Source: Methanomassiliicoccales archaeon (lineage in GTDB: Archaea; Thermoplasmatota; Thermoplasmata; Methanomassiliicoccales; UBA472). Taken from it: a stretch of DNA of 36,223 nucleotides. Positions 25,672 to 30,269 of this stretch are shown in pieces (positions within the stretch are counted from its first letter, which is position 1; each line of letters opens with the position of its first letter). Position numbers and translations under genes: made by a program. Where the stretch lies: positions 1-36,223 of the forward strand of contig JAJRAN010000034.1 of the NCBI GenBank assembly GCA_028682915.1, written 5' to 3'. The notes under the pieces were generated by a model. It made no database searches and had not been told where the DNA came from. It worked only from the letters and a program-made list of their open reading frames with translations.

Positions 25672-26247
25672 ATGAAGAGGAAAATTGCGATGTTGCTGGT
25701 AAGCGCAACCCTTGCTATCGCCCTATTAGGCGGCGGGGTTTATGCATACTTCAGCGACACAGAGTCCAGCACCGGAAATCAATTCACCGCTGGCTCGTTG
25801 GATCTGGTCTTTGGAGGCTCTGGATCCTCGAGCATGGTTCTTAACAATCTGGCCCCAGGCAACTCTGGAGCTTCGTCATTACAACTAGACAACAATGGTA
25901 ACATTGCCGGTACTCTCACGATGACTGCGAGTAATGTGGTCGACGGCGAAGGAACAAACTGGGAGCCCGAGACCAACACCGCCCCACCCGGCGATCTGAG
26001 CGCCAATGTTGACATCGTTGTCTTTGTTGATGCCAACGGCAACGGAATCTATGATGACGGCGTAGGGAACGATCTGTGGAGTGGGAAACTCAACACCCTG
26101 CCGAGCGTTAACGTCAACTGCGGCTCCCTTGCTGGAGCCGGCTCGACCCACATCGGTATCTACTGGAGCATCGCGACGAGCGTAGGTAACGACATAATGG
26201 GTGACACTACCTCCTTCGATGTAACGTTCACCCTGCAGCAACCGTAG
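25672..26247 (+). CDS. TasA/camelysin (CalY)-like secreted pilin or matrix protein
   Basis: MKRKIAMLLVSATLAIALLGGGVYAYFSDTESSTGNQFTAGSLDL...NNLAPGNSGASSLQLDNNGNIAGTLTM; SipW-type leader and TasA-like N-L-x-PG motif; SD GGAGGT upstream. Confidence 0.85.
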   Translation: MKRKIAMLLVSATLAIALLGGGVYAYFSDTESSTGNQFTAGSLDLVFGGSGSSSMVLNNLAPGNSGASSLQLDNNGNIAGTLTMTASNVVDGEGTNWEPETNTAPPGDLSANVDIVVFVDANGNGIYDDGVGNDLWSGKLNTLPSVNVNCGSLAGAGSTHIGIYWSIATSVGNDIMGDTTSFDVTFTLQQP

Positions 26248-26256
26248 AACCCCCCC

Positions 26257-26286
26257 TAGCAGGTGGATCGCAAGGTCCACCTGCTA
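26257..26286 (+). terminator. Intercistronic hairpin, possible attenuator or mRNA-stabilising element
   Basis: Perfect 11-bp stem TAGCAGGTGGA / TCCACCTGCTA with 8-nt loop TCGCAAGG. Confidence 0.55.
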
Positions 26287-26337
26287 TCAAATTTGTTAAT
26301 ATCTTAGGTCGAGGAACCGAGTACCAGAGGTATCAGT

Positions 26338-26856
26338 ATGAGAAGGAAGAGAATCATAACGAAGCGCATTACCTATACTATCCTAGGGGTGCTGATTGGA
26401 CTTGTGGTCCTTTTAGCGGTCTCCCCTATCGTCGGAGTTCGCTTCGATGCGATTCTCTCTGGGAGCATGTCCCCCTCCTTGGATGTCGGGGACCTTGTCG
26501 TAACCACGTCTGCCTCTCCAGAGGATCTGAGTGTAGGCGACATCATCGTATTCCATTCACCAATCAATGGCAATCTCATTTGCCATCGGATCATCTCAAT
26601 AGGGCAGGAGGATGGATCCCTAGTCTTCCAAACCAAAGGGGATTGCAACGAGGATCCAGACCCTTTCACGCTGAGCTCCGACAGCATCGTTGGTAAGGTG
26701 CAGGCCTGCATCCCATCAATGGGCTACGTCGTGCAATGGCTAAGAGGCCCTTTTGGGATTCTGGCTTTAATCAGCCTCGGAGCTGCGGCGTTGCTCATTC
26801 CTGATAAGCCTGAGGATAACAAGAAGGAAATCACGAAGGAAGATACGAATGGCTGA
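26338..26856 (+). CDS. Signal peptidase I, ER/SipW type (S26B)
   Basis: SGSMSPSLDVGDLVV (Ser), NGNLICHRIISI (His instead of Lys), TKGDCNEDPDP; N- and C-terminal TM segments. Confidence 0.9.
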   Translation: MRRKRIITKRITYTILGVLIGLVVLLAVSPIVGVRFDAILSGSMSPSLDVGDLVVTTSASPEDLSVGDIIVFHSPINGNLICHRIISIGQEDGSLVFQTKGDCNEDPDPFTLSSDSIVGKVQACIPSMGYVVQWLRGPFGILALISLGAAALLIPDKPEDNKKEITKEDTNG

Positions 26857-28207
26857 GCGTAAGAGACGAGCGAAGCTAGGGATCATTGCGACGGCTTTCG
26901 TGCTGTGGCTGATGCTAGCTAGCATCATGGGGGCTTCGGCCTCCTACTTCGATTCAGAGCAAGCCATAGTCAGTCTCACCGGGTTCACCTCTAGCAGATG
27001 GACGCAGACGACCCGGGCCGATTTCCAACTTGACGTGCGCGCGAATGTGGACATTGACCGTCAGCCAGATGATGTGATCCTTAGTGGGAGAACGGAATTC
27101 CTTTACGCATTCCGTGGGGGAAATTCCCGCTCCTTCTGGAGGTATAACACCAGCACCACGACCTGGGGCACGTTGGCAAACGCCCCTGCCCTCCTAAGGG
27201 ACGAAGGAGGTGCCTTGGCCAGCGATGGCGACAGATATATCTACGCAATTCATGGCGGCAATCGTCAATTCTGGCGATACGACACCTCGTATAACCTCTG
27301 GTCGACAATGGCCCCGACCCCGAACAACGTCAGACTCGGCGGTGGGCTTAGCTACGATGGTAAAGGTGGTTTCTATGCCCTCCGAGGTGACAGCAACAAC
27401 GGATTCTGGAGATACAATGTCGCCACTGATGCCTGGGCGGTCCTCATCAATACTCCGGGAACGGTAAGTGATGGAGGCTGTCTTGTTAGCGATCAAAAGA
27501 ATTTTGTATTTGCCATACAAGGAAACGGGCTGAGCGCATTCTGGCGCTACAACGTGACATCCAATTCTTGGTCCACAATGGCGCCAGTCCCATACCAAGT
27601 GCGCTACGGAGGGGCGATGACCTATGATGGCATCGACAGCATTTACGCTTTGACCGGATGGTCTCAGCCTTACTTCCTCAGGTATAGCATTTCTGAGAAC
27701 CATTGGTATACCTTGTCCAACATACCGAGCGCGGTCAGCTATGGTGGGAGCTTAGCCTTCTGCTATCCCAGCACCCTCTTCGCTTTCTCCGGTGGAGGCA
27801 CATCAAGGTACTGGCAATATGCCATTTCCACTGGAACTTGGTCCGCCGCCATATCCGCACCAGGGACCGTAGGAGTGGGAGGGGCCCTCACCAACGGTCC
27901 TTTGATGTTCTCTAGGGCAGGGACCTTGACATCTGTGACCTGCGACACAGGAAAGGCAGGGTCCTCGATCCTGGGGCTGTTTTGGTCTGAGGCGTTGGCA
28001 TCCGGTACGGACATCACCTTCGAGATGCGCGCCTCGGACACGCTCTCATCGGGTGCACCTTCTGGTCCATGGATAGGCCTTGGCGGGACCTCCCCCGTGA
28101 TTTCAGGCTTGCCTAGCGGCAGGTACATTCAATGGAGGGCAACACTGACCACCAGCAACCTACATCTGACCCCAGTGTTACAGGAGGTCCGGATCTATTA
28201 TGTCTAG
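26849..28207 (+). CDS. Secreted Kelch-like beta-propeller protein with SipW-type leader
   Basis: Leader ...LMLASIMGASASYFDSEQAIVSLTGFTSS; six FWRY-type repeats; start overlaps the signal peptidase gene by 8 nt. Confidence 0.78.
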   Translation: MAERKRRAKLGIIATAFVLWLMLASIMGASASYFDSEQAIVSLTGFTSSRWTQTTRADFQLDVRANVDIDRQPDDVILSGRTEFLYAFRGGNSRSFWRYNTSTTTWGTLANAPALLRDEGGALASDGDRYIYAIHGGNRQFWRYDTSYNLWSTMAPTPNNVRLGGGLSYDGKGGFYALRGDSNNGFWRYNVATDAWAVLINTPGTVSDGGCLVSDQKNFVFAIQGNGLSAFWRYNVTSNSWSTMAPVPYQVRYGGAMTYDGIDSIYALTGWSQPYFLRYSISENHWYTLSNIPSAVSYGGSLAFCYPSTLFAFSGGGTSRYWQYAISTGTWSAAISAPGTVGVGGALTNGPLMFSRAGTLTSVTCDTGKAGSSILGLFWSEALASGTDITFEMRASDTLSSGAPSGPWIGLGGTSPVISGLPSGRYIQWRATLTTSNLHLTPVLQEVRIYYV

Positions 28208-30269
28208 GGCACATGGATGCGCGGGAAGGTCCAAACCCACCCTTCTCCGATCAGCCGTGGCCATAGCTCTATTGTTGATTCTCTTATCATTAATGCCCCT
28301 TACGCTTCCATCGGTCGAGGCAGCTGCAGTCCCCGTCATCGATTTGGAATTGAATGGAGGATATGATACCCCGTTCGCCGTCGAGAACCTCAAACCTGGC
28401 GATATGGGCTCCAAGAGCGTCGTATTGCGCAATATCGGGAATGTCGATGGGGAGATCGCCATTTGGATCTCAAACATCCTGGAGTCAGACTTCGCCGGGG
28501 ATGGCGCCCATTTGGACGACTATCTTCTCTTCGATGTCAGTTGTACCGACATATCTACCGATGTCCGGACGCCCTGCCCCATTCGTTCGTTGCCGAGCGC
28601 TCCTGTAGGAAGCAGCTACATCTGGGTTCTCAACGTCCGGGCAGGCCAGACAATCCAGATCAATTGGCTCTGGGAGTTCGTCGAGAACTATCAATCCCAA
28701 AATGAGGCCCAAGGCGATTCACTCAGCTTTGATATCAATTACCTGCTCGGAGATATGCTTCCCCCCAGCCAGGGAATGTCCTGGTTGAAGGTGGATGTAC
28801 TGGGTAGGATCACCACCGCCCTGTTGGACAATGAAGGAAGGGCAACGAGCCAAGTAGTGGCCTTTGATGAGGCCAGGTCCGTTTCCCTCACCATTCCTGA
28901 AGGAGCGAGATGCGTCTCCGAGGACAATGGGACAATAAGCAGCATCGTGATCTCGAAGGATGAGGGTGCACTGCCAGTTGAGGCGGGCCAGGCTTTGATC
29001 GGTCCAGTCTATTCAATAGACGCCTTCGTTTCTTCGGAGGAACAGGCACAAGTCTTCCTTGATATTCCTGCGACCCTGCGCATCAATTACGACCCGGCCT
29101 TGCTGCCCTCCATCACGGAAACAATCGGTCTCTATATGCACCTGGAGGGAAGTTCCTGGGTACCTTTGACGATGGCCGTGGACTCACCGTCCTACATTGG
29201 GCAATGTGCTAGCATCATTAACAGATCGGGGCAGGTTGGCGTAATCGCTTCGTTCGATCCCCTGGAATCAGCCTACTTCCTGCCCAGCAGCTTGACCATC
29301 GACCCAAGCAGACAGGTATGGTGGGATCCAATCATCTTCGCGAGTCGAGTTGGAAAGGTCATCAAAGTGACCGTGATGCTGACGAACATTGGTCAAGTCG
29401 GTGGTGTAGAGAACGTCACATTATTAGTAAATGGAAATGAGGTCGAGGTCGAACAGGTCGCCTTAGGTCCATTAGAAACAAGGGAGGTGACCTTCGATCT
29501 GAGCGGAATGGACGAAGGGGATTACGAGATCGAGGTATCAGGCCTCTCCGGCCATGTGGCGGTCGGCACGGATGTGAACTGGTGGCTGATAATCGCCTTC
29601 TTCTGTCTCGCCCTTGGTGCGGTGGTCGGATTCGCCTACAGTGCAAGCCGCTGGGATGCGATGAGACGGCGCGTCGACCGTCTACAGAGCAGCGTCAATG
29701 ACGTGGAGTCCAAGTTAATGGTACCCGAGACATCGCCGATGCCCTTGAACCAAACGCCTATCATGAAGAGCATGCAAGTGAACCCGGGCCAGAGGACGAT
29801 GGCTAAGGCTGCATCATCTCCCCAACCCGCCCAGAGCATCGATGAGACCATGGCGGCCTATGTGGCGAGCTCCGAGCCCGATGCCTCGCAAAAAGAGGAA
29901 AGGCTCTGGATCGCCGACTCCTTCAATCAGGTGGACAAGGCTTTGGAGCCGGAGCCATCTATCAGCCCAGATGCACCACAAATCGAGGATGAAGTGATTT
30001 CCGGTCAAGATAGCCCATCTTCTGAGGAAGGTCTGGCGTTCGAAGCTAGCATCCAGTTCATGGATGATGTAGAGGCTCGCAGGATGGTGCTGGCCAAAGG
30101 TTTCCTCCTGGAAAAGATCCATTCCGAAGGCGAGCTGGTTGTGGATGAAGTGCCAGAAGGCCCGAGCGGCATGATCGCCATAGCCGCGTTAAGCCAGCTG
30201 GTGGAGGAAGGCAAGCTTCGCGTCGTGCAAGAGAAGCATCGCACCATCTACTTCATGAACGAGCAGTAG
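28200..30269 (+). CDS. Membrane-anchored protein: TasA-like N-domain, CARDB-like domain, TM, cytosolic tail
   Basis: Signal/TM at N-terminus; VENLKPGDMGSKSVVLRNIGNVDGEIAIWISN; VTVMLTNIGQVGGVENVTLLVNGNEVEVEQVALGPLETREVTFDLSGMDEGDYEIEV; TM WWLIIAFFCLALGAVVGFAY; start overlaps the previous gene by 8 nt. Confidence 0.72.
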   Translation: MSRAHGCAGRSKPTLLRSAVAIALLLILLSLMPLTLPSVEAAAVPVIDLELNGGYDTPFAVENLKPGDMGSKSVVLRNIGNVDGEIAIWISNILESDFAGDGAHLDDYLLFDVSCTDISTDVRTPCPIRSLPSAPVGSSYIWVLNVRAGQTIQINWLWEFVENYQSQNEAQGDSLSFDINYLLGDMLPPSQGMSWLKVDVLGRITTALLDNEGRATSQVVAFDEARSVSLTIPEGARCVSEDNGTISSIVISKDEGALPVEAGQALIGPVYSIDAFVSSEEQAQVFLDIPATLRINYDPALLPSITETIGLYMHLEGSSWVPLTMAVDSPSYIGQCASIINRSGQVGVIASFDPLESAYFLPSSLTIDPSRQVWWDPIIFASRVGKVIKVTVMLTNIGQVGGVENVTLLVNGNEVEVEQVALGPLETREVTFDLSGMDEGDYEIEVSGLSGHVAVGTDVNWWLIIAFFCLALGAVVGFAYSASRWDAMRRRVDRLQSSVNDVESKLMVPETSPMPLNQTPIMKSMQVNPGQRTMAKAASSPQPAQSIDETMAAYVASSEPDASQKEERLWIADSFNQVDKALEPEPSISPDAPQIEDEVISGQDSPSSEEGLAFEASIQFMDDVEARRMVLAKGFLLEKIHSEGELVVDEVPEGPSGMIAIAALSQLVEEGKLRVVQEKHRTIYFMNEQ

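Follow-up and report, generated by a model that had tools for sequence, protein, structure and literature searches.

Positions 25672-30269 of the window, by which we mean the whole stretch of 36,223 nucleotides analyzed here (contig 3 of a Methanomassiliicoccales assembly totalling 1.84 Mb), contain four open reading frames, P1 to P4, at the coordinates given by a first-pass annotation of this DNA. As that annotation had proposed, the genes are consecutive and all lie on the + strand, starting at 25672, 26338, 26849, and 28200. The features of the locus are:

25672-26247, + strand: P1, 191 aa; predicted TasA/camelysin-like fibre subunit with a SipW-type leader, followed by the donor-like segment AYFSDTESSTGNQFTAG
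26257-26286, + strand: hairpin between P1 and P2, 13 bp with a 4-nt loop; supported by intergenic folding energy relative to shuffles
26338-26856, + strand: P2, 172 aa; predicted SipW/ER-type signal peptidase (TIGR02228) with Ser43, His83, and Asp102
26849-28207, + strand: P3, 452 aa; predicted secreted protein with a leader, a Kelch propeller, and a conserved C-terminal module; proposed donor-only cap
28200-30269, + strand: P4, 689 aa; predicted signal peptide, TasA-like domain, CARDB-like domain, transmembrane helix, and cytoplasmic tail; proposed acceptor-only membrane base
28317-28757, + strand: TasA-like domain of P4, assigned by homology to P1 (hhalign)

The 8-nt overlaps that had been described for the last two junctions are real in the window, where P2 and P3 share 26849-26856 and P3 and P4 share 28200-28207. 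In relatives, the spacing at these junctions varies between 77-nt overlaps (as called) and gaps of a few nucleotides; tight gene packing is conserved and the exact 8-nt overlap is not. Ribosome-binding sequences of the AGGAGG type lie upstream of P1 and P4. The P1-P2 intergenic region folds to -31.6 kcal/mol, compared to a shuffled mean of -19.3 kcal/mol, with 0 of 300 shuffles reaching so low an energy. The hairpin at 26257-26286 is a possible expression step-down after P1 and, together with the overlapping P2, P3, and P4 genes, would fit production of more P1 than of the remaining proteins. A long hairpin is also found at the P1-SipW junction of a Chloroflexi locus (L117).

Profile and structure searches agree with the first-pass assignment of P1 to the TasA family. 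P1 matches PF12389 with 64.2 bits (E 1.9e-17, Pfam cut-off 22.5 bits) and the SipW-dependent leader model TIGR04088 with 37 bits (cut-off 19). Its score of 46 bits against the B. subtilis TasA equivalog NF046066 does not reach the cut-off of 450, and on these scores P1 is a relative of TasA rather than TasA itself. A profile built from the P1 alignment reaches TasA (8aur, 8e-6) and the archaeal bundling protein AbpX (9sj2, 5e-4) in the PDB, and the AlphaFold model of P1 returns the fibre form of TasA as its top PDB match in Foldseek (8aur, E 2.1e-6), with 5of1 fourth. The model has a pLDDT of 77, and its low-confidence stretch is residues 20-38, around the end of the leader and the donor-like segment. 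Sequence and predicted fold together identify P1 as TasA/camelysin-like. PF12389 is named after camelysin, a metallo-endopeptidase, which raises the possibility that P1 is not a fibre subunit and instead acts as a secreted protease resembling camelysin or as a matrix protein in monomeric form; given that the fibre form of TasA is the best fold match and that all P1s examined (14 of 14) have a donor-like segment directly behind the leader, we regard this as very improbable. By analogy to TasA, a P1 fibre subunit would polymerize through its N-terminal donor strand.

P2 scores 102.8 bits against TIGR02228, the archaeal/ER-type signal peptidase model (E 1.6e-29, cut-off 51.85), and 81.1 bits against the B. 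subtilis SipW equivalog NF046067, the cut-off of which (190) is not reached. Ser43, His83, and Asp102 are invariant among 15 homologues. The genome encodes a second S26-like peptidase (355 aa, contig 90) that scores just 11 bits with TIGR02228 and, judged from its sequence, looks like a housekeeping enzyme. Across the order, 11 of 147 genomes contain a TIGR02228 match of at least 78 bits and 10 of these 11 also encode a TIGR04088 protein; in the eleventh (G010) the SipW-P3 pair is located at a contig end. The suggestion that P2 is a dedicated peptidase thus holds insofar as P2 is of the SipW type, is distinct from the second S26 enzyme encoded in the genome, and co-occurs with leader proteins. 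Dependence on SipW is not absolute: a genome from the same genus as the window (G133, 99% complete) retains P1, P3, and P4 with no TIGR02228 match at E<=0.01, and the approximately 350 nt between its P1 and P3 contain no SipW ORF. Another peptidase may replace SipW in this genome, or the assembly may be faulty. P1 is the presumptive substrate of P2.

P3 matches Kelch_3 with 42.1 bits (E 8.9e-11, Pfam cut-off 22 bits). Its C-terminal module of approximately 100 aa, for which a Pfam search returned no named family, is conserved even where the propeller is absent. In genus g16, P3 consists of the leader and the C-terminal module, with no Kelch domain; the P3s of G017, G019, and G021, which have this reduced form, are approximately 175-180 aa long. 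By this comparison the propeller, which had been counted as part of the module, is an optional head of P3 and not a core part. The N-terminus of P3 has no relevant match in the PDB, and comparison of P3 with TapA found no sequence likeness.

The likeness that had been noted between the P1 and P3 leaders was evaluated by searching for a P1-like segment just after the leader, using composition-preserving shuffles as the reference. A P1-like donor segment is present in 13 of 17 P3s (p<=0.006), compared to 0 of 15 P4s. The likeness is thus significant for most of the family and not for the window P3 (p=0.40), which fails the test along with the P3s of G019, G020, and G022. The donor segment of the window P3 is too diverged to score, and its assignment as a donor follows from membership in the family, including the homologue from the same genus (G133), which passes (p=0.004). 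P3s do not match the P1 core profile, the exception being an extra TasA-like protein of G481.

Evidence for a second TasA-like module, in the membrane-anchored P4, is provided by profile comparison. The N-terminal domain of P4 aligns to the P1 profile with an hhalign probability of 99 (E 3e-18, 132 columns), while its PF12389 score of 22.9 bits is marginal against the cut-off of 22.5. The CARDB-like region scores below the Pfam cut-off. P4 contains a signal peptide and, as read from its sequence, one apparent transmembrane helix at approximately residues 461-482 followed by a cytoplasmic tail. The structure search did not corroborate the TasA assignment: Foldseek with the multidomain P4 model returned mostly unrelated beta-sandwiches and not TasA, and we do not count it as support. 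The P4 domain was modelled at moderate confidence, so its open acceptor groove is putative.

Two profiles, one for the post-cleavage segment of P1 and one for the P1 core, were run on the neighboring proteins. The core profile matches all 18 P4s and the donor-segment profile matches none of the 18. P4, possessing a sandwich and no donor segment, would accordingly be expected to act as an acceptor only. A different arrangement is conceivable in which the TasA-like domain of P4 is closed and self-complemented, P4 then being an assembly chaperone or fibre-binding partner. Precedents come from TasA monomers, which self-complement before assembly (PMC9674648, cited in PMC9715654), and from the closed domain of TapA, which is unable to accept a strand (PMC10151520). 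P4, however, aligns to P1 from the first core strand through the C-terminal QGD.LSF strand, and the alignment gives no sign of an additional strand, which makes a closed domain appear improbable.

We identified relatives of the locus with the P4 alignment, mostly in Methanomassiliicoccales/Thermoplasmatota archaea; a search with P2 alone found none. P4 homologues are present in 11 of 147 genomes of the order. P1, P2, P3, and P4 lie on one strand and in one order in G000, G011, G015, G017, G019, G020, G021, and G022, and the set is split over two contig ends in G139. Inspection of the flanks by eye showed helicase, Fe-S, and ABC genes in the genus of the window, ribosomal-protein-like genes near the G139 and G011 sets, and other housekeeping-like genes in G015 to G022. 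Methanomassiliicoccales thus preserve the P1-SipW-P3-P4 order in at least three different genomic settings. The first-pass annotation had named independent shuffling of the genes across relatives as the outcome that would count against a common module; what we find is that the set stays together and the flanks change. An apparent P1-P2 fusion in G022 (one ORF, L064 233-1303) was rejected, P1 being out of frame before the join and a frameshift being likelier.

Other SipW-associated proteins occur within the order. G013 encodes three divergent TasA-like proteins and SipW on short contigs, with no P4 match (L058 4147-4776 and 5926-6540; L127 787-1365). G090 (L066; contigs C92, C118, and C35) encodes six large proteins, in open frames of approximately 730-960 aa, with SipW-type leaders, along with several signal peptidases, and these proteins constitute a different SipW-dependent set.

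Outside archaea, the P4 scan also identified the Chloroflexi Dehalococcoidales MAG L117 and RBG_16_56_11 (L125), both of which encode P1, SipW, leader protein(s), and P4. P4-domain matches are present in 11 of 393 Dehalococcoidia genomes, and G480 (a second copy), G784, and G660 have additional clusters that combine SipW, P1, leader protein, and P4, with a variant in G584. In the second G480 cluster (C34), an automatic search with the P1 model matches three neighboring proteins over positions 3-193, 2-40, and 43-190, which indicates the same donor/acceptor split as the profile test. Several of the Chloroflexi clusters reside on contigs of 57-186 kb, making mis-binning unlikely as a general explanation. 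The archaeal SipWs group together in a tree with moderate support (89/91), and the P4 tree leaves the number and direction of transfers open. When the whole P4 alignment was used to search the phylum, matches to the CARDB region (columns ~378-450) dominated, and the result is hardly informative on TasA domains outside the order. The occurrence of related sets in Methanomassiliicoccales and Dehalococcoidia points to interdomain sharing of a surface system. One Dehalococcoidia MAG (L123) encodes only a shortened P4 (4302-5507) that is missing its N-terminal part, with no P1 in the genome, which looks like decay by deletion. The L123 P4 adjoins the same response-regulator-like genes as L117.

Across clusters, the sequence comparisons reveal a split of roles in which P1 combines a donor segment with a sandwich, most P3s carry a donor-like segment but lack the sandwich, and P4 has a sandwich and no donor segment. 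We favor, at a probability of roughly 0.55, the interpretation that the cluster encodes a fibre of the TasA type, assembled by donor-strand exchange on the surface of the archaeal cell, with P1 as the shaft, P3 as a donor-only cap, and P4 as an acceptor-only membrane base. After Sec-dependent export, P1 would be cleaved by P2, the ER-type peptidase, close to the aromatic segment AYFSD. The cut would free the N-terminal strand of P1 to complete the beta-sandwich of the next P1, generating a linear fibre. P3, with a donor-like N-terminus and no acceptor sandwich, could occupy one fibre end only, similar to TapA, and would display a variable head, here the Kelch propeller. P4 has a standard signal peptide and a transmembrane helix, and its TasA-like domain starts directly at the first core strand; it would only receive a strand, tying the opposite end of the fibre to the membrane and giving it a polarity. 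Such a fibre may function in adhesion or biofilm formation. The earlier description of the locus as a complete matrix/pilus module is therefore borne out for the TasA-type subunit, the SipW-type peptidase, and the TasA-like domain in a membrane-anchored P4, while completeness and fibre formation are matters of inference and the propeller is not core.

The main competing interpretation is that P1 makes a TasA-type fibre while P3 acts on its own as a secreted adhesin and P4 serves as a surface receptor or S-layer linker that happens to share a TasA-like domain, the genes being co-regulated only. Binding is a common function of Kelch and CARDB-like domains, and the window P3 has no scorable donor segment, both of which are compatible with this idea. 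P4 nearly always adjoins P1 and SipW, however, and leader proteins lacking a sandwich are found repeatedly between SipW/P1 and P4, in archaea as well as in Chloroflexi. We thus consider an independent adhesin and receptor rather unlikely, though a more serious contender than a closed P4.

The proposed base, shaft, and cap can be compared with several characterized systems. TasA fibres assemble as each subunit uses its N-terminal strand to complete the sandwich of its neighbor (PMC9674648), and TasA-family fibres are already known in archaea (PMC10151520, PMC9674648). The B. subtilis tapA-sipW-tasA operon, like the present locus, combines a TasA-type subunit, a SipW-type peptidase, and an accessory protein that carries the N-terminus of the subunit, and its tapA and sipW genes overlap, as do genes here (PMC10151520). 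The TapA N-terminus (AFHDI) is almost identical to that of TasA (AFNDI) and the TapA domain is closed, so that TapA donates only and can start a fibre (PMC10151520). The present locus differs in that P1 and P2 both score below the B. subtilis equivalog cut-offs and in its membrane-anchored protein with a donor-less TasA-like domain, which is not described for the B. subtilis operon. B. cereus sipW-tasA, calY, and capP likewise produce TasA-type filaments that are processed by SipW and involve an accessory protein for assembly; CapP is chaperone-like and located in the cell wall, and the available part of the source reports neither a TasA-like membrane anchor nor a propeller protein (PMC13082335).

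Among archaea, the AbpA (Pyrobaculum) and AbpX (Pyrodictium) bundling pili are TasA-related donor-strand fibres (PMC11952670). The P1 profile reaches AbpX (9sj2/9rhp), though both proteins are distant from P1 in sequence. Sulfolobus threads (Saci_0406) are another archaeal donor-strand fibre, and Saci_0405 is their proposed donor-only cap, with no acceptor site, the role we propose for P3; the thread subunit, in contrast, is Type-I-pilin-like, and the available part of the source reports neither SipW nor a membrane anchor (PMC9715654). The literature covered, which stops short of the original AbpA report, yielded neither a donor-less membrane-anchored TasA-like partner nor this four-gene set.

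Neither the way in which archaeal donor-strand fibres are attached to the cell nor their outward-facing end is settled, and PMC9715654 states that the polarity of thread filaments is unknown. If the proposed role of P4 is correct, a membrane-anchored TasA-like protein with no donor strand would fix attachment and polarity together. We tentatively suggest, with less confidence than for the fibre itself, that archaea and Chloroflexi share a base-shaft-cap system. A single polymerization chemistry would be distributed over its three proteins, cap heads would be exchangeable, and the transmembrane base might use its cytoplasmic tail (of winged-helix-like appearance in some members) to signal to the cell that a fibre is attached. 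An anchor of this kind whose tail resembles a DNA-binding domain would be remarkable. We do not claim a winged-helix identity for the tail, as Pfam gave just a weak DUF2582 match for the G015 tail (E 0.022); by eye, P4 tails appear winged-helix-like in the window (29961-30266) and in L059, L060, and L061.
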